Of a stretch of 58,763 nucleotides of DNA, positions 5,238 to 42,436 are shown in pieces. The DNA lies in the IMG/VR virus record IMGVR_UViG_3300031673_000048, positions 1 through 58,763 of that record; one strand, given 5' to 3'. Origin of the DNA: a virus. Each line of letters opens with the position of its first letter. The stretch's first letter is position 1. Both the position numbers and the translations under genes were made by a program. The notes below the pieces were generated by a model that was not told the DNA's origin, did no database searches, and saw only the letters and a list, made by a program, of their open reading frames with translations.

Positions 5238-5779
5238 AGGTAAGGCATGATTTCAATAATCCGATGCAGATTATCCTTTAGTTCTTGATTCATTCGACCT
5301 TCTAATTCCTTAATTTCATCGAGGTACAGTTTATATATCTGCTCATCTTTTTCTGTTGCCCATTCAGGTTTATATTCTGTATAATCATTACCAATATCAA
5401 CCCAATCCCTAATCGGGCTATGCTTAAATGCTCGTTCCCAGAGTCTATCGCATAGCCCAGGATATAGTTTATTATAGACTTGATGCCACCAATCATACAG
5501 CTCTTGCATTTCATCACGAACGTACTTGTCACCGATCTTATGGCTATATTCGCCATACCATTCAATACGTTCTTCCGGTTCACATTCTCGTTCAATGAAC
5601 TGCGAAAGAATCTCGAACATTGTTTCTGGCAATATTGCACAACGATCATGCCAAGTATGGTCAAGATACCGAGATTTTACAGTGGTGTAACGATGCCAAC
5701 AAAAGCATTTAATCCTGTACCAAACCCGCCCAGGTCGCCAATCATAAGGAAGAATTTTCCAGTATAGTTCTCTTAACAT
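5228..5779 (-). CDS. Conserved-looking phage protein of unknown function
   Basis: 183 residues, rich in Trp, Tyr and charged residues. The segment SRYLDHTWHDRCAILPE followed by FEILSQFIERE resembles a widespread uncharacterised phage protein (RYL-x-x-TW-x-DRD-x-x-x-L-x-x-N pattern), but I cannot name a function. The C-terminal half is strongly helical. It has 10-base and 7-base overlaps with its neighbours. Confidence 0.65.
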   Translation of the reverse strand: MLRELYWKILPYDWRPGRVWYRIKCFCWHRYTTVKSRYLDHTWHDRCAILPETMFEILSQFIERECEPEERIEWYGEYSHKIGDKYVRDEMQELYDWWHQVYNKLYPGLCDRLWERAFKHSPIRDWVDIGNDYTEYKPEWATEKDEQIYKLYLDEIKELEGRMNQELKDNLHRIIEIMPYLWT

Positions 5780-14978: not shown

Positions 14979-15044
14979 AATCATCGTTTTTAACAAAATC
15001 AATATCATTTTACTTTTTTCTAGTCTATTCAGTTTTTCTTTTTC

Positions 15045-15104
<60 letters not shown>

Positions 15105-15198
15105 GTGGGGGCATATATTATATTATAACCTATATTTTCAAGCTGTCAACCATAATTATTTAACGAATTATGAAATGGTATTGATTTTATTAATCTTA

Positions 15199-32131: not shown

Positions 32132-34444
32132 TTAATTGCGATTTAACTCCAATGCTTTAGTTACATCACCCATTGTCAATGCTTGTAGTTCACGTTTCTT
32201 TTTAAGATTCTCAAGAATAAGATAATCAGTATTGAGATGTAGCAAATCAATTATAGTGCAACCGCGGTTTATATCCATACCAGGTCTATGGGCACGATCT
32301 TCTGATTGTATACGACTCTCCGCATTAAAATCATTACTATAATAAATAATAACTGGACTTGCTGTGAGGGTCAAACCCATCCCCGCTGCACCAGGTTGGC
32401 CAATGAACGCTATTCTTGGATACTTAACTAATTCTTTTTGGAAATTAGTAAGTTCATCGCCATCAATAGAACTATGCCAACCGCGACCATCTACACGTAT
32501 ATATTCCCAACCGCAATCTTTAACTATTTGCACGCATCTATCAATACTGCCAGTGAAACCAGCATAAATAATAACACGACCAATTTCACTATATTCATCT
32601 AATAATTCTCTTAATGCTTCATCTTTCGGTGTCTCAAATTGCTCAGCAATTTGTGTGTAAGTCTTAATTGTTCCTATCCCGCCACAGCCATCACAAATAA
32701 CAGTCTCATTGAGATTAATATCAATTGGCTGGCTATCTTCTGGTAAATCTGATCCTACTAACGGATTAGGTATAGCTCCTTTACCTGCACAAACAGAACA
32801 TTGTTTCTCACCGCTTTCTTTTTCAATATATTGGAAACCGTCACTTAATTCTCTTAATAATATTAAACCGGCAACAATAGTGTTGGCTCCAGCGACAAGA
32901 GACTTAGCAATATCAAGAATTGATTTAGATGGTTTCAGCTCAATACAACGATATATTTTATCTGGGAGATCAAGACAATCTTTTTTGAATTGAACAAGAA
33001 CAAGCCCAGACATCCTTTTATAGAGTCGTTCACACTCATTTACCGATGGTGTGAATTGATGATCAGCATCTAAGTCGATACTTGAATGGGTATCTTTATA
33101 TTCGCCACAAATCGCACACTTATTACTATCATCGAGCCAAGCAACAACTTTTGGGTACGCTTGGCCAAAAAGATTTTCTTCTTGAGATATAATGGCTAAT
33201 GTATTACGAAATTTAGCATAAGAGCCTTCTTTAATAAATCCAGAACAAGCTGTCTCACACTGATTATACCAATCAAGTGGACTCTTCGGAGCAGGTGAGC
33301 CGCTAGTAAGAATGATATAACCGTTTTTACCGTATTTCTCTCTAATACGATCAGCCATAATTAAAGCTGCTTGTGACCGTTGAGCGGTTGGTGATTTTAT
33401 TCTCGATGATTCATCTAACCATAGCCCTTGTGGGGGGTCAGCATCACTTTTCACTAATTTAACTAATTTCTGATAAGTCATTACTTCTGGTATGACTCGT
33501 GCATCCCATTGATTGAACTCATACTCCACAGCTTTAATTGCTGATTTTGGTCCAACATACCACCAATCCTCAAATCCCGATCGTTCCATGACCTCGATCC
33601 CGACCAATGTTTTACCACAATTATGCACATGAATATTATTAGCAAGAAAATGTCTATAAGGTTCATCGCAAACAATATCATAAACTTCTTGCTCAAACCA
33701 TGTAGAAAATGACTCTATTCTTATAAAATCAATTTTATCTTTTCCGATTTCTACTCTAACTAAATCACCTTCCATTAACTCACTATTCGCAGCAAAATCT
33801 GTAAATCCTATCCCAATCTCGTGGTCTGGTGTAACTGTAATACTATGGCCATTTTCTAAATTAATAGTTCGTACCTGCTTAATACCTTGGCATATAACAT
33901 TATAAACTTTAACATACTTAGACCTAGAACCTACAAGAGTTTTGATTCTAAAATCCATTTCTACTATTTTATGGCGAAAACGGCTATCACCATTATGGAA
34001 ATATAAATAAAAATCTTCTAATTTAATTATTTTGCTGTGATCTTTTTTCCCTGGTAAAATAGTAACAATAGTATCACCAGATAAACATCCCATTTCTGCT
34101 GCAAGAATAGCCTGTTTACGTAATAAAAGAAAATCAACATCTTTCTTTTGATGATCATAAAGTGGACGCTGATAGTCATTCTTAACTGGTTCTTTATCGT
34201 AATCTTTATATGGATTTTTGCCTTGTAAATACTCTAACTGAAAAATATTATGAGGAGAGTTATTAATACGCCATACTTTTCGTGGAGGATTTTCATACCC
34301 TAGCCATCTAGCCCCTTCCATTGATTTTATTTCAGCAATTAATACTTTACTAAAGCCAAATGAAACAAAAATATATTCATCCTCAAATAATAATTTAACT
34401 GGGATTAAATATTTTCCTGCTTTGAGTTTAACATCTATTTTCAT
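32132..34444 (-). CDS. SNF2-type superfamily 2 helicase interrupted by an intein
   Basis: 770 residues including a 156-residue intein (120-275). Extein motifs: DHQKKDVDFLLLRKQAILAAEMG, split here as DHQKKDVDF and AILAAEMG, joined to CGKTLVG to form Walker A; LWLDESSRIK Walker B; LTSGSPAPKS motif III; and in the C-terminal lobe QPGAAGMGLTL and QSEDRAHRPGM motifs V-VI. Two Cys clusters (CSVCAGKG and CDGCGGIG, DnaJ-like; also CAICGEY) should bind zinc. It is a DNA translocase or helicase for replication or recombination, active only after splicing. Confidence 0.9.
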   Translation of the reverse strand: MKIDVKLKAGKYLIPVKLLFEDEYIFVSFGFSKVLIAEIKSMEGARWLGYENPPRKVWRINNSPHNIFQLEYLQGKNPYKDYDKEPVKNDYQRPLYDHQKKDVDFLLLRKQAILAAEMGCLSGDTIVTILPGKKDHSKIIKLEDFYLYFHNGDSRFRHKIVEMDFRIKTLVGSRSKYVKVYNVICQGIKQVRTINLENGHSITVTPDHEIGIGFTDFAANSELMEGDLVRVEIGKDKIDFIRIESFSTWFEQEVYDIVCDEPYRHFLANNIHVHNCGKTLVGIEVMERSGFEDWWYVGPKSAIKAVEYEFNQWDARVIPEVMTYQKLVKLVKSDADPPQGLWLDESSRIKSPTAQRSQAALIMADRIREKYGKNGYIILTSGSPAPKSPLDWYNQCETACSGFIKEGSYAKFRNTLAIISQEENLFGQAYPKVVAWLDDSNKCAICGEYKDTHSSIDLDADHQFTPSVNECERLYKRMSGLVLVQFKKDCLDLPDKIYRCIELKPSKSILDIAKSLVAGANTIVAGLILLRELSDGFQYIEKESGEKQCSVCAGKGAIPNPLVGSDLPEDSQPIDINLNETVICDGCGGIGTIKTYTQIAEQFETPKDEALRELLDEYSEIGRVIIYAGFTGSIDRCVQIVKDCGWEYIRVDGRGWHSSIDGDELTNFQKELVKYPRIAFIGQPGAAGMGLTLTASPVIIYYSNDFNAESRIQSEDRAHRPGMDINRGCTIIDLLHLNTDYLILENLKKKRELQALTMGDVTKALELNRN
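33620..34087 (-). mobile_element. Mini-intein in helicase Walker A motif
   Basis: 156 residues starting CLSGDTIVTI (block A), with TVTPDHEI (block B, T-x-x-H), VYDIVCDEPYRHFLAN (block F) and NNIHVHN followed by Cys (block G, terminal Asn plus Cys +1). No LAGLIDADG or HNH domain is present, so it is a minimal splicing-only intein. The host site is AEMG/CGKT, the ATP-binding loop, a preferred intein position. Confidence 0.93.
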
Positions 34445-35008: not shown

Positions 35009-35470
35009 TCATTTCAAAAGCTTTCGTTCAATTATAAAAATTTGTTTAAGCCCGATATTATAAAAAAAAGATAAACAAAGAGAAGCAAGCTCTGATTCTA
35101 TTGATAGAACTTGCTTCCATTTATCTAATGATCCCGAAACGTAAACTAAACGATAATTCTTTTTTCTAGTTTTTGATATTAAAATCTCTAATCCAGATAA
35201 ATCGAGAAGATCGGCTGCTGGGGCGTAGATAAGGAATGAGAAGAATAAATGCCCCAGCAGCCGATCTGATTGTGATAGAATGGTAGACGGTATTACTATT
35301 TCACCTTTATAGAATTCTGCTAAAGATATGATAGCTCTAGCATGATCATTGAATTTGATTTTACAATTATCAAGAGAAAAAGTTGGAGTATGGCCTGTTA
35401 AATTGGCTACTTCTTTAATGAAGATCGGCCAATTCAGGATAGATGTTCCAATAGGCCACACTCTAATCAT
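35009..35470 (-). CDS. Unknown protein, 153 aa, containing a strong hairpin in its gene
   Basis: MIRVWPIGTSILNWPIFIKE onward; alternating strands and helices, including LDLSGLEILISKTRKKNYRL and LVYVSGSLDKWKQVLS. No motif recognised. The gene contains a perfect 17-bp GC-rich inverted repeat at 35208-35267. Stop and start overlap the neighbouring gene's ATG region (ATGA at 35470). Confidence 0.6.
   Translation of the reverse strand: MIRVWPIGTSILNWPIFIKEVANLTGHTPTFSLDNCKIKFNDHARAIISLAEFYKGEIVIPSTILSQSDRLLGHLFFSFLIYAPAADLLDLSGLEILISKTRKKNYRLVYVSGSLDKWKQVLSIESELASLCLSFFYNIGLKQIFIIERKLLK
35208..35267. repeat. Perfect 17-bp inverted repeat inside a gene
   Basis: Arm AGATCGGCTGCTGGGGC (35208-35224) is the exact reverse complement of 35251-35267, with a 26-base AT-rich loop. 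It is GC-rich against its AT-rich surroundings. As RNA it would form a very stable stem within the open reading frame. Confidence 0.95.
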
Positions 35471-36111
35471 TATCGTTCCCGGCTGTCATCATCAGAGGCA
35501 AGCTCAGGAGTACGATCGGGAGGATTAAGAAATTGATTAATCTTAACTTTGATAGTTTCAATCGGTGGTAAATCAATTGGCGTTGAGCAAGCTATAACAA
35601 CCGGACCAGCCCACACAAATTTACCTTTCTTAATAATACGACTCTTCAGGGTCGCTGCACATCGAAGTAATGGTTCAACCTGCCGAGCTTCCCTTCTTGC
35701 GGTCTTCGATGACATAAAGAATGTCAGGAACCGTTCTACTGGTGGCACCCATAATAGGAACTCAGGACCATACATACAACCACTATCTTTAACAGGAGAC
35801 CTTTCTTGAATATCCTTGAAAACATCTGATGTTGGATCAAATGATTCTAAAATCGGGTCTTCATTTGTTGATAAGGCTTTTGAACGCCATGATAGAATAA
35901 CAACATCTACGGTATCACCAAGATCAATAACGCCATCGTCCTCGGGGATGCCATAATGATTGGCAGGTATCTTGCCTTCCTGAACAAGATTGGACTTACT
36001 ACTATAAAGCTGTAAACGATAGAAGAAATTCTCTTCAGAAGCAGTTATTTCAGCTAAACTGCCACCTTGAGGGGCTGCTATTTCGTTTGATGGAATTAAT
36101 TCATTAGACAT
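35470..36111 (-). CDS. Unknown phage protein, 213 aa, possible replication accessory
   Basis: The central region (FFYRLQLYSSKSNLVQEGKI, DLGDTVDVVILSWRSKAL, GPEFLLWVPPVERFLTFFMS) is beta-rich with a conserved look; the C-terminus is acidic (ASDDDSRER), a feature of single-strand-binding proteins. Neighbours are replication genes, so an ssDNA-binding role is possible, but the fold is not recognised. Confidence 0.55.
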   Translation of the reverse strand: MSNELIPSNEIAAPQGGSLAEITASEENFFYRLQLYSSKSNLVQEGKIPANHYGIPEDDGVIDLGDTVDVVILSWRSKALSTNEDPILESFDPTSDVFKDIQERSPVKDSGCMYGPEFLLWVPPVERFLTFFMSSKTARREARQVEPLLRCAATLKSRIIKKGKFVWAGPVVIACSTPIDLPPIETIKVKINQFLNPPDRTPELASDDDSRER

Positions 36112-37632: not shown

Positions 37633-38247
37633 AACCGACTCTCCTAAGTGAGAAATGTAAATAGTTTCAAATCGACTGATAATAAAATCAAACTATAACT
37701 AATAATAAAATCAAACTTTTACTAATAATAACAAATTTTCAATGATAATAATATCAATCTCATAAAATCAATATCAAATGACTCAATCCCATAAAATCAA
37801 TATCACTCGACTCTTACTGGTCTACCACTTATACTACGTGTTTTTTGGACATTTTGTCGGCTGAAAATGCCTTGAAAAGTTGTATTTTCATAAATCGTTT
37901 GGTAATAAGAACTTAACAGGAAAACAGGAAATAATTTGATTCCTATATATCCCTTGTGGAACTATTTTTATACTTTTCGATTCCACGAGAGCTAAAAGTT
38001 GTATAAGTTGTAATCTTGTTAAGTTCTTATTGCCAAACGATATAGATTTTATTGAATCTTTATATTATTGTTGCGTAAAGGACTGATTACTATTGTACAA
38101 ACGACTATGGAAAAACGTAGTATAGGTGGGGATTGTCCCGCACGTACACGCGAAAAGAAAGGACTGAAAGCTGCTTTGATATTGATTTTATGAACTTTAA
38201 CCGAATGATTTTGATTTTATTAAACAAGAAACTTTGATTTTATAATC
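37633..38247. promoter_or_regulatory. Divergent control region with nested inverted repeats and 10-mer array
   Basis: No gene. Three nested inverted repeats centre near 37970: outer 37825-37846 with 38111-38129, middle 37894-37918 with 38017-38041 (24 of 25 bases match), inner near 37953-37962 with 37981-37989. The 10-mer TTGATTTTAT occurs four times on the minus strand (37682-37691, 37705-37714, 37762-37771, 37791-37800) and three times on the plus strand (38182-38191, 38211-38220, 38234-38243), always pointing outward. It drives or organises both gene arms and could be an origin. Confidence 0.8.
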
Positions 38248-38795
38248 ATGGCTCAAACTAAAAAAAATGCAGTTGCTGCGGGTTTGTTAAGTCTGTAGAT
38301 GAATTTTATTTCAATAAAACAAGGCAAGATGGCCCGCAGCACTATTGTAAGATTTGTAAAGAAAAGTTAAGAGGGAGGAATAAACAAATTTTATCTACTG
38401 AATACTTACCAAAAGAAAAAAGATGTTCTGTTTGTGATAAAATTAAACAACAAATTGATTTCCATCTTAATACCGGGAAAAAAGATGGGTTAAGTTGTCA
38501 ATGTATTGAATGCTATAAAAAAAGACGAACTTATAATAAACAATATAAAAAATCATATCATCGGTTAAATAAATATGGATTAAATGATTTTCAATATAGT
38601 CAATTATTAGAGAAACAAAATAATGTTTGTGCTATTTGTGGTAAAACAGTTAAATTATATGTTGACCATAATCATAAAACCAATAAAGTAAGAGGATTAC
38701 TTTGTAGCAGTTGTAATAAAATGCTGGGTTTTACAAAAGATAATCCACAAATACTGAGAGACGGTGCTGATTATGCTGGGGATAATATCAAATGA
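38248..38795 (+). pseudogene. Endonuclease VII-like gene, frameshifted in an A8 run
   Basis: ATG 38248 reads MAQTKK, then a run of eight A (38260-38267) puts the rest out of frame. The other frame gives CSCCGFVKSVDEFYFNKTRQ, a second C-x-x-C unit (CSVCDKIK), then VCAICGKTVKLYVDHNHKTN and VRGLLCSSCNKMLGF, the H-x-x-x-x-x-x-R-G-L-L-C-x-x-C-N core of recombination endonuclease VII. It ends in ATGA with the primase gene. Nine or six A would restore it. Confidence 0.75.
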
Positions 38796-41700
38796 GCATT
38801 ACCAAAACTGTAGCAATAAAGAATTTTCTCACCGCTTTCGCCCAACCCGATCTTGCAGAACTATATCACTATGGAATAGAAGTACAGGTTAATGCCGCCC
38901 AAGATGACGGTATACAAATTTCTGGTGATTTTAAGGGTCGGCAATGGAGAGGGTTCACTGATGGAGAAACGACTTGGAAATCTTTCAGAATTCCGTGGAA
39001 GGCAGCAACTAAAGCAGAATATACTGATACTGAACTGAAATGGGATTTGCGTGAGCACACAGAATCAATAGGAATGACTGGGTGGAATTGGGAAAAAAGA
39101 GTATCTAAATGGGTTGGCTTCGATTTTGATTCGGTTATAAGCCATAACGATGGCCTTACCGCAAAAGAATTACAAAATGTAACTAACGCCGCTACCGCGA
39201 TCCCTTGGGTAACTACAAGAAAATCAACCTCTGGGAATGGCCTTCATCTTTACGTTTTTGTTAATGATATTAGAACCAGTAATCATACTGAACACGCTGC
39301 TTTAGCTAGAGCAATTATTGGCAAAATGTCAGCTACAACTGGCTTTGATTTCAATAATCACGTTGATATATGTGGTGGAAATCTTTGGGTTTATCATCGT
39401 AAAATGATTGGGACTGATGGACTTGAATTAATTAAGCAAGGCGATATTTTATATGATATACCACCGAACTGGGAAGATCATATTCCTGTTATAAAAGGTA
39501 GACGTAAAAAGATTCTGCCGAGAGCAGTTAAAGAAGAAACACTTTTCGAGCAACTTACTGGCCAATATAATCATATTAAACTAGATTCTGAGCACCAACG
39601 ATTACTTGATTATCTTGAAGAAAAAGGATCATCTTGGTGGTACGATCAAGATAATAATTTATTAGTATGCCATTCATTCGACCTAAAAGAGGCTCATACT
39701 GATCTTAATCTCAGAGGCTTATACGATACAATAGCCACTGGTAAGGATAGGCCAGATCACAATTGTCTTAGCGGCGATACAGAGATTTTAACATCAACTG
39801 GCCCCCGCCAAATAAAAGATGTTGCCGAAGAAGGGCACGCTGAACTATATGTTTATACGCCTGAAGGTTATAAGTGGGTAGACTGTAAAGTACAATCATT
39901 TGGAAAGCAAACAACTATTCCAATCACATTTGGAAATAATGATACCATTCGTACTACTTTAGACCATGAATGGTTAGTTTATAACGACTCTGCTAAAAAG
40001 AATATTGATATTAATAGAAAAAAGAAGACTTTTGAATTAAGATTGGTTGAAAAAATACCGTTAGCACAATTAGAATTGTCTCCTATAGACTATGAGGGCT
40101 ACGCACATGGATTTGTGTTTGGTGACGGGCATGAAGTCTATGATAAAAGGCACATTAACCCAAAATTAACAACTTCAGTTGTATTATATAAGCATGACCA
40201 AGATTTGTTAAAATTATTTTCACAGTACGGTAATATAGGGTCTCGTATTGTTTCTAATTTTGGCAGAATACCAGAAGTACGCCAATTACCTTGGAATTGG
40301 AAATGCCTACCAAAAAATAAAACTAAGGGCTATGCTCTAGGATTCATTCTGGGGTTAATAAGTGCAGATGGGTCTTTGGATAAAAATTTTGGGCATATAA
40401 GATTAGGCCAAAATAATAAAGAGCACATAATTAAAATAAGAGAATTAGCTATTCACGCAGGACTACGTTGTGGAAAAATACATACACAAGTTTGCGAATC
40501 TGTTAATAGAAAAATAACTTTAAGCTATCGTTTTTCTATAAAATCATATAACTTAACTAAAAAACATTTTTTACGTTTAGATCATCAACAAAGATTTGTC
40601 AATAAAAATAATCAGCTTACAAATGTTAAATATATTGATTTTGATGATAAAATCGAAGAAGAAGTATTTTGTGCTATCGTTCCAAAGTGGCACAATTTTA
40701 CATTAGCCAATGGTATTATTACAGGAAATTGCTTTTGTAAGCCCGCTGAGCATCCTTCTGGGTCATGGGTAGTCCGCCGATTCAGCCAAGGCATACAAGA
40801 GACAGATACTTGGTTTCAAGACAATACTGGTTTTACTTGTACCAACTTCAATAGAGAACCTACTCTCGAAATCGCGGCTAGGACTCATGGTGCAGTTGAA
40901 GACGAGAAAGGTGCATACCATTTTCGTGAAGCCGAGGTTGCTACCACAGCCGTCTCAGCAATTGGAGCACATTTGAATCTACCGAGTTGGGCAGCCAATC
41001 GAAAGGCTACTATTAAAAAACACAAAGACGGGAAAAGAGTTATAGTCTCTATTAAAAGAGAACCGTCTGATAATCCGGTAGAAATGATCGGTTGGAAAGA
41101 AGAAAAAGATTGGTGGAAAAAGATTTTTGATGCTAAACTCCCAAAAGATGAGTCACTTGATAATCAAAATTATGATAGTATTGTTAGACATCTTGTTACA
41201 GTAGAACACCAAGATAGCGGTTGGGTTCTAAATGCTAATGATAATTGGCAAGCAGAGCCACTTAACCATTTACGTATAGCTTTAAAATCATTGGGATTAA
41301 ATGATTTTGAAATCAATAATGCTCTTGGCAAGTGCGTATTGGAAAGCTGGAAACTAGTTAATAAACCCTTTGAGCCTGAGTATCCTGGCAGCCGAGAATG
41401 GAATCGTGACGCTGTTCAATTAAAATACTTACCACAACAAGAAGAGCCGTTCGTACATACTAATTGGGATAGGCTACTCAACCAATGCGGGCACGGCCTT
41501 AACGACGCTGTGACCCGTAATGGTTGGTGCCTAGCCAATGGCATACAAACTGGTGCAGACTATTTGCGATTGTGGATAGCCTCATTATTTCAGTTTCCGA
41601 CTAAACACTTACCGTATTTATTCCTTTACTCTTTAGAACAACAAACAGGTAAAACAACATTACATGAATCATTGAAACTGCTTTTAACATCAAAAGGTTA

Positions 41701-42436
41701 TATGGATGTTAAAGCCGCTCTTATTAGCCAAGCTGGTTTTAATGAGGAAATAAAGAATGCTATAATTTGTGCTGTAGATGAATGCGATCTACGACAGAAT
41801 AAATATGCCTATAATAGAATAAAAGATTGGATCACTGGCGAAGATATTTTAATTCACCCAAAAGGTCGCACCCCATATATGGTGCAAAATATTGCTCATT
41901 TTATTCATACTGGGAATAATCCTAATGAGTTACCTGTATTTAGTGGTGATTCCCGGATTGTGGTAATAAAAGTACCACCAATTGAATTAGAAAAAATGAT
42001 ACCAAAAGATACTTTTCTTAAATTATTAGATAAAGAGGCTCCGGCATTCCTTGCTACTCTTTTCCATATAGATATACCCCCATGTAATGACAGATTAAGT
42101 ATACCTGTTATCGAAACCGAAGAGAAAGAGTTAAGTGCTAAATCTAATCGAAATGCGGTTGAAATATTTCTTGATGAGTGCTGTTACTATTCACCTGGTG
42201 ATAGTGTTCTTTACAGTGATCTTTGGGTACAATTTAATGAATGGCTTGATCCAGGAGAAACCATAGCATGGACTAAAATCAAAATGGGACGAACCCTACC
42301 GTCTATTTATCCGAAAGGTCGTTTAGCTACTGACGGTGGACAATTCCATATAGGTAATATCTCATTCGCTAAACCCGAAAAAATAAAATCGAAAAAATAT
42401 ATCCTTAAAAGCGATAATCTTGCTTTGGAGGATTAA
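38792..42436 (+). CDS. Primase-polymerase/superfamily 3 helicase with an intein
   Basis: 1214 residues including a 322-residue intein (325-646). N-terminal AEP primase: WVGFDFDSV (D-x-D), TRKSTSGNGLHLYVFV (S-G-x-G-L-H) and HVDICGGNLWVYH. After the intein, CFCKPAEHPSGSW may complete a Cys-containing finger. C-terminal helicase: LYSLEQQTGKTTLHESLKLL (Walker A), AIICAVDECDL (Walker B) and IAHFIHTGNNPNELPVFSGD (motif C), then an Arg finger region. It starts and unwinds replication forks. It needs protein splicing to work. Confidence 0.9.
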   Translation: MSITKTVAIKNFLTAFAQPDLAELYHYGIEVQVNAAQDDGIQISGDFKGRQWRGFTDGETTWKSFRIPWKAATKAEYTDTELKWDLREHTESIGMTGWNWEKRVSKWVGFDFDSVISHNDGLTAKELQNVTNAATAIPWVTTRKSTSGNGLHLYVFVNDIRTSNHTEHAALARAIIGKMSATTGFDFNNHVDICGGNLWVYHRKMIGTDGLELIKQGDILYDIPPNWEDHIPVIKGRRKKILPRAVKEETLFEQLTGQYNHIKLDSEHQRLLDYLEEKGSSWWYDQDNNLLVCHSFDLKEAHTDLNLRGLYDTIATGKDRPDHNCLSGDTEILTSTGPRQIKDVAEEGHAELYVYTPEGYKWVDCKVQSFGKQTTIPITFGNNDTIRTTLDHEWLVYNDSAKKNIDINRKKKTFELRLVEKIPLAQLELSPIDYEGYAHGFVFGDGHEVYDKRHINPKLTTSVVLYKHDQDLLKLFSQYGNIGSRIVSNFGRIPEVRQLPWNWKCLPKNKTKGYALGFILGLISADGSLDKNFGHIRLGQNNKEHIIKIRELAIHAGLRCGKIHTQVCESVNRKITLSYRFSIKSYNLTKKHFLRLDHQQRFVNKNNQLTNVKYIDFDDKIEEEVFCAIVPKWHNFTLANGIITGNCFCKPAEHPSGSWVVRRFSQGIQETDTWFQDNTGFTCTNFNREPTLEIAARTHGAVEDEKGAYHFREAEVATTAVSAIGAHLNLPSWAANRKATIKKHKDGKRVIVSIKREPSDNPVEMIGWKEEKDWWKKIFDAKLPKDESLDNQNYDSIVRHLVTVEHQDSGWVLNANDNWQAEPLNHLRIALKSLGLNDFEINNALGKCVLESWKLVNKPFEPEYPGSREWNRDAVQLKYLPQQEEPFVHTNWDRLLNQCGHGLNDAVTRNGWCLANGIQTGADYLRLWIASLFQFPTKHLPYLFLYSLEQQTGKTTLHESLKLLLTSKGYMDVKAALISQAGFNEEIKNAIICAVDECDLRQNKYAYNRIKDWITGEDILIHPKGRTPYMVQNIAHFIHTGNNPNELPVFSGDSRIVVIKVPPIELEKMIPKDTFLKLLDKEAPAFLATLFHIDIPPCNDRLSIPVIETEEKELSAKSNRNAVEIFLDECCYYSPGDSVLYSDLWVQFNEWLDPGETIAWTKIKMGRTLPSIYPKGRLATDGGQFHIGNISFAKPEKIKSKKYILKSDNLALED
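39764..40729 (+). mobile_element. Intein with LAGLIDADG-type homing endonuclease
   Basis: 322 residues from CLSGDTEIL to GIITGN, followed by Cys +1. Block B is RTTLDHEW (T-x-x-H) and the C-terminal splice block KWHNFTLANGIITGN. The middle has two dodecapeptide-like motifs: YAHGFVFGDGHE and YALGFILGLISADGS, the signature of DOD endonucleases. The first lacks a perfect consensus but retains G-D-G. Likely still mobile. Confidence 0.93.

Follow-up and report, generated by a model that had tools for sequence, protein, structure and literature searches.

A perfect hairpin in a phage coding sequence belongs to a pattern of strong stems recurring at one gene junction

A GC-rich stem and loop span positions 35208-35267 of the window, the whole 58,763-nt uncultivated phage record analysed here, on the minus strand and within the coding sequence (CDS) of a gene for a 153-residue protein with a predicted ThyX fold. 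This coding hairpin is real and non-random, and it is part of a pattern that recurs across this phage group. We give about an even chance to its being a functional mRNA structure, embedded in the CDS, that shields the message of the upstream gene, coding for a 213-residue protein, from decay from the 3' end. The features concerned are listed in Table 1.

Table 1. Positions of the hairpin elements and of the genes at the junction
Feature	Positions	Strand	Remarks
Stem 5' arm (arm 1), as the mRNA reads	35251-35267	-	AGATCGGCTGCTGGGGC; encodes S-D-R-L-L-G-H; rare codons
Unpaired loop, 26 nt	35225-35250	-	encodes the conserved strand (H)LFFSFLIY
Stem 3' arm (arm 2), as the mRNA reads	35208-35224	-	GCCCCAGCAGCCGATCT; encodes A-P-A-A-D-L
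Second strong stem in the 153-residue protein gene	35081-35118	-	13 pairs, one of them G-U; 12-nt loop
Host gene of the hairpin, 153-residue ThyX-fold protein	35009-35470	-	fold by Foldseek; no ThyX sequence-family match
Upstream gene, 213-residue protein	35470-36111	-	family motif GCMYGPEF; weak OB/SSB-like fold

A perfect stem in ordinary coding sequence

As described in the earlier note, the segments AGATCGGCTGCTGGGGC (35208-35224) and GCCCCAGCAGCCGATCT (35251-35267) match as exact reverse complements at all 17 positions (17/17) and are separated by 26 nt. The note's judgement that such a match goes beyond chance was borne out. The mRNA-strand fold of the hairpin has an energy of -36.6 kcal/mol (z -9.5), and 0 of 200 dinucleotide shuffles were as good. 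It is the sole perfect stem longer than 12 bp with a loop of at most 60 nt in the record, and the lowest-energy 70-nt window on the minus (coding) strand of the whole record. The codons alone do not require the stem either, in agreement with the note, since its score of 46 compares with 21.6 +/- 2.7 for synonymous-codon shuffles of the 153-residue protein gene (z 9). Arm 1 harbours codons that are rare in the genome (CGG 7%, CTG 4%, CTG 4% and GGG 13%), and at the residues encoded by arm 2 conservation is lower than elsewhere in the protein (mean BLOSUM -0.03 versus 0.79). The hairpin starts at nucleotide 204 of the CDS. The second strong stem of the gene coincides with a deficit of ~13 residues in the 153-residue protein relative to its homologues.

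Elsewhere in the record, another very stable hairpin, an imperfect one of ~-43 kcal/mol over 90 nt, is found at 41455-41545 (plus strand) in a rightward primase-like gene (38792-42436), and a ~70-nt GCGT repeat tract (15037-15113) represents the most stable plus-strand fold. An Rfam scan returned tRNA and tmRNA only.

The 153-residue protein aligns with its homologues across the hairpin without insertion, ~4 residues being missing just past arm 2, which indicates that no element was inserted and that the hairpin is part of the normal coding sequence. No further copies of the arms were found in the record, and the paired arms have no match in the genome contigs and viral contigs searched. The one single-arm 17-mer match among the viral contigs, at locus L021, was taken as a chance occurrence; this GC-rich contig encodes EIGCWGI at that site. 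The suggestion of a mini-element inserted in frame was therefore abandoned: for a palindromic element of the Rickettsia RPE type, there is neither an extra peptide segment relative to the homologues nor a copy elsewhere.

Gene context and family

A Foldseek search with the AlphaFold model of the 153-residue protein (mean pLDDT 93) matched ThyX structure 4fzb with a probability of 1.00, a TM score of 0.62-0.64 and an E-value of 0.005, and the protein is thus predicted from its model to adopt the fold of ThyX, the flavin-dependent thymidylate synthase. The ThyX models in Pfam matched none of 25 family members. For the 213-residue protein, matches were of the OB-fold/SSB-like type, and as they are weak (E above 0.1) its role is a guess. 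The stop of the conserved 213-residue protein gene overlaps the start of the ThyX-fold gene by 1 nt. The former gene is preceded by a ribosome-binding-like AAAAGGT motif, and the overlapping start of the latter lacks an equally clear one, a contrast that fits a greater demand for the 213-residue product. The hairpin-bearing gene sits in a replication module with genes for ParB-like, helicase, exonuclease and polymerase proteins.

Direct searches with the 153-residue protein and with the helicase returned zero relatives, and a profile made from the ThyX-fold proteins by themselves proved too divergent for scanning. Used as a query, the 213-residue neighbour gave many relatives in IMG/VR and opened the family. 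A homologue of the 153-residue protein is encoded downstream of the 213-residue protein gene in 49 loci, the record included (48 other phage loci). No named phage with a match to the 58,763-base record was found, and the 213-residue protein gene is absent from the named phages and from the host genome contigs searched.

Other features of these genomes were recorded. The helicase ORF (32132-34444, minus strand) appears to be split by an in-frame intein (CLSGDTIVTI ... HVHNC), with a weak Pfam Intein_splicing match below the cut-off. A divergent intergenic region beside the ParB-like gene (37677-38250) harbours repeated and inverted TGATTTTA/TGATATTGATTTTAT motifs and resembles an operator, promoter or partition/origin region. 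Positions 1486-1757 hold a tandem array of about 11 or more copies of the 17-nt unit TCAATAGCCCCTTACCG. At locus L008, a tmRNA gene (5395-5719) is located shortly 3' of the ThyX-fold gene.

Recurrence of stems in the ThyX-fold gene

The sequence of the record's stem is not conserved across the relatives. The earlier note had considered that relatives encoding the same protein with no pairing between the two segments would refute its proposals, and such relatives do exist, L022, L024 and others among them. In the closest relative, L022, whose 213-residue protein is 64% identical, strong stems are missing both from the gene and from the gap between the two genes, and the same holds for L024 and L121. 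Stems in other registers nevertheless recur far above expectation. In-CDS stems with a score of at least 27 are found in 15 of the 49 ThyX-fold genes, compared with 1.55 expected from synonymous shuffles, or in 14 of 48 when the record that prompted the search is set aside. As some loci are sister pairs (L055/L018, L054/L059), the stem-bearing genes represent ~13 independent lineages. In the same loci, no such excess was found for the adjacent 213-residue protein gene (3 versus 1.9 expected) or for the other genes (9 versus 6.3 expected). The count of 15 of 49 and those on gap length given below rest on corrected start codons, with L106 assigned a gap stem and the position in L013 shifted. A later-found second set of loci, with uncorrected start codons, showed a weaker in-gene excess (4/18 versus 6/109 at score 28).

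Stems range from 11 to 19 bp across the ThyX-fold gene family. The in-gene stem of L004 has 19 pairs out of 19 at nucleotide 210 and that of L003 has 18 pairs at nucleotide 121; further ones are present in L005, L008, L015, L032, L055, L018 and others. The stem is centred on codons 61-80 (record numbering) in 7 genes from five lineages versus 0.32 expected, this bin having been chosen post hoc; the score thresholds were likewise picked after inspection of the data. In L004, L008, L013, L099 and L032, conservation of the arm residues is about equal to that of the remaining protein or higher (somewhat lower for arm 1 of L004), indicating that pairing was gained there largely via codon choice.

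Exchange between gap and coding sequence

Stems with a score of at least 28 are present within 270 nt after the stop of the 213-residue protein gene at 31 of 54 loci, but at only 9 of 107 control gene ends (Fisher 4e-11). In most of the other relatives, the strong stem is found in the gap that follows the 213-residue protein gene. Gap stems are mostly located 7-60 nt past this stop, before the ThyX-fold gene, and many of them lie directly 5' of its ribosome-binding site and start codon. An in-CDS stem is found in 6 of 7 loci with a gap shorter than 20 nt, the record belonging to these short-gap loci, versus 9 of 42 with a gap (p 0.002). This link is what one expects if the transcript requires a strong stem near the junction, which shifts into the CDS where space is lacking elsewhere. 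The exchange is a loose one: several loci carry both stems, and in eight loci an in-CDS stem is present despite a gap stem or room for one.

The 213-residue protein gene itself often has a stem on either side, with strong hairpins just 5' of it in many relatives (L003, L005, L014, L007, L018).

An RNA-level signal

If the structure forms in sense-strand RNA, G-T oppositions are predicted to outnumber A-C oppositions, whereas equal numbers are predicted for a DNA structure or for a neutral repeat in decay. Gap stems have a G-T:A-C count of 12:2 (p 0.013) and in-gene stems one of 14:6 (p 0.12), compared with 69:59 in control segments. This preponderance of G-U pairs over A-C mismatches points to sense-strand RNA.

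Compensatory changes, which the earlier note had recommended looking for, were found in part of the family. Between the gap stems of L010 and L012 there are two double changes, both of which preserve the pairing. The in-CDS stem common to L055 and L018, whose genes are 66% identical, has undergone three pair-affecting changes, and its pairing is kept except at the loop end. In these two genes, synonymous codons are identical at 7 of 10 positions in the stem versus 41 of 100 outside (p 0.08), which is suggestive of constraint at wobble sites. The record's own stem is absent in L022.

Proposed role in mRNA protection

In our view, the likeliest role of the hairpin at the junction between the 213-residue protein gene and the ThyX-fold gene is to protect mRNA or to allow differential expression, with the chances for and against this role evenly balanced. 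On the leftward transcript, the hairpin would mark the 3' boundary of the message for the 213-residue protein. The polycistronic mRNA would be cut downstream and the strong stem would halt 3'-to-5' exonucleases, such that the upstream message would persist while the downstream ThyX-fold and helicase portion would decay faster. The stem, its excess over shuffles, its recurrence, the link with gap length and the G-U bias are observed; that the hairpin acts on mRNA decay, and in which direction, is what we infer.

Hairpins of this kind have been described in Escherichia coli operons. They lack a U-tract and are often located in the downstream CDS, at a mean of 107 +/- 56 nt into it (Dar and Sorek 2018, PMC5927463). 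Once the transcript has been cut internally, such a stem halts 3' exonucleases and preserves the upstream message, malE-malF being the prototype (PMC5927463). Of the hallmarks of these hairpins, both a stable hairpin at the junction and its embedding in the downstream CDS are found here. The stems of the phage family lie 143 +/- 94 nt into the CDS over 15 genes, and the 204 nt of the record is more than 1 s.d. beyond the published mean (PMC5927463). As a counterpoint to the protection reading, the record's hairpin is 203 nt past the stop of the 213-residue protein gene, versus 7-60 nt for most gap stems. The stemless L022, L024 and L121, the eight loci whose in-CDS stem coexists with a gap stem or with room for one, and the weaker excess in the second set of loci likewise weigh against it.

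A broader proposal is put forward tentatively, with clearly less confidence. In a broad uncultivated phage group, the ThyX-fold gene might be the preferred site of a strong and obligatory hairpin in the mRNA, by which the ratio of two replication proteins would be set; the sequence and place of the hairpin would turn over freely between gap and CDS, and selection would act solely on a strong fold being present.

Alternative explanations

The main alternative is that the stem is a by-product of template switching without function. A polymerase would have used one arm as the template for the other, perfecting an imperfect inverted repeat (quasipalindrome), and the fast-evolving protein would have tolerated the change. 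A single event could yield arms as perfect as these (17/17); the process has been documented for coding DNA (PMC8604942), and RNA hairpins have been documented to arise from it (PMC8794818). The poorly conserved residues of arm 2, the deletions in the 153-residue protein beside arm 2 and at the second stem, and the missing stem of L022 are also in line with this explanation. We nevertheless consider it rather unlikely. Template switching should hit neighbouring genes too, whereas the excess is limited to the ThyX-fold gene; it does not account for the conserved-residue arms in loci such as L004 and L013, and it predicts neither the G-U bias nor the link with gap length. It may well be the origin of the stem, with function then retaining it, an origin made plausible by the poor conservation of the arm 2 residues together with the adjoining deletion.

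Termination, DNA-level roles and an artefact are all weaker explanations. That the hairpin is a transcription terminator or attenuator reducing expression of the ThyX-fold gene and the downstream helicase appears improbable to us, even though it follows the 213-residue protein gene and some relatives have U-rich tails (TTTTTTC in L003, TATTATTTT in L040). An intrinsic (Rho-independent) terminator, which needs a short loop and an immediate U-tract, was rejected: the record has a 26-nt loop and an interrupted tail (TCTCGATTTATC / TCTCGATTT; 5 T in 9, no run of four), and a terminator scan with a loop limit of 8 did not list the hairpin. Termination of a Rho-dependent or phage-specific kind may still occur. 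A consistent U-tract is also absent from the family, with four consecutive T within 9 nt in only 5 of 44 strong stems (gap and gene), and a ribosome-binding site and start codon directly after many gap stems argue against termination there. The proposal of attenuation or RNA stabilisation in the earlier note is thus partly supported. The recurrent stems, the gap stems and the G-U excess favour an RNA-level role, that of a 3' boundary hairpin of the upstream message, over a classic attenuator, for which a clean U-tract is missing.

We regard a DNA-level element, be it a cruciform, a single-strand replication initiation site or a packaging signal, as very improbable. The location of the gene in a replication module would suit such an element, but a DNA structure does not favour an excess of G-U over A-C, no sequence is shared, and position and register vary; the cruciform or initiation site envisaged earlier thus gained no support. 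An assembly or amplification artefact, conceivable for a metagenomic record, is hardly credible, with frame and homology intact across both arms and the loop, comparable stems in relatives from independent samples, and only a 7-base coincidence (AGATCGG) between the arms and adapter sequence.

Comparison with known systems and significance

Under the mRNA protection reading, the phage hairpins resemble the protective hairpins of E. coli in being very stable, located at a junction between operon genes, in the gap or the downstream CDS at a comparable distance, and devoid of a clean U-tract (PMC5927463). They differ in that they belong to phage genes and vary in stem sequence and place between relatives; the E. 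coli hairpins are mostly conserved in Salmonella and Enterobacter, with constraint on wobble positions (PMC5927463). The stem-loops of selective RNA processing and stabilisation in the Clostridium cellulolyticum cip-cel operon similarly lie at the 3' terminus of the upstream gene in an operon, but those processing sites are described as intergenic and are measured, while the phage stem is in a CDS (PMC4423207). The coding palindromes of nematomorph mitochondria are also perfect inverted repeats within CDSs, with both arms coding, and are gained and lost between species; they reach 284 bp and affect many genes, unlike the phage stems of 11-19 bp, which are found in one gene family and tolerate G-U pairs (PMC6649704). 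On a brief literature check, this kind of mechanism is already known, and such turnover in phages may be new.

If our reading is correct, programmed mRNA protection by CDS-embedded hairpins would extend from E. coli operons to phage operons. The family would provide a natural series in which one junction is served by a gap or a coding hairpin, so that the trade-off between RNA structure and protein sequence could be put to a direct test. It would also indicate that a structure can be selected without sequence covariation at a single site, and that covariation searches would therefore miss it.
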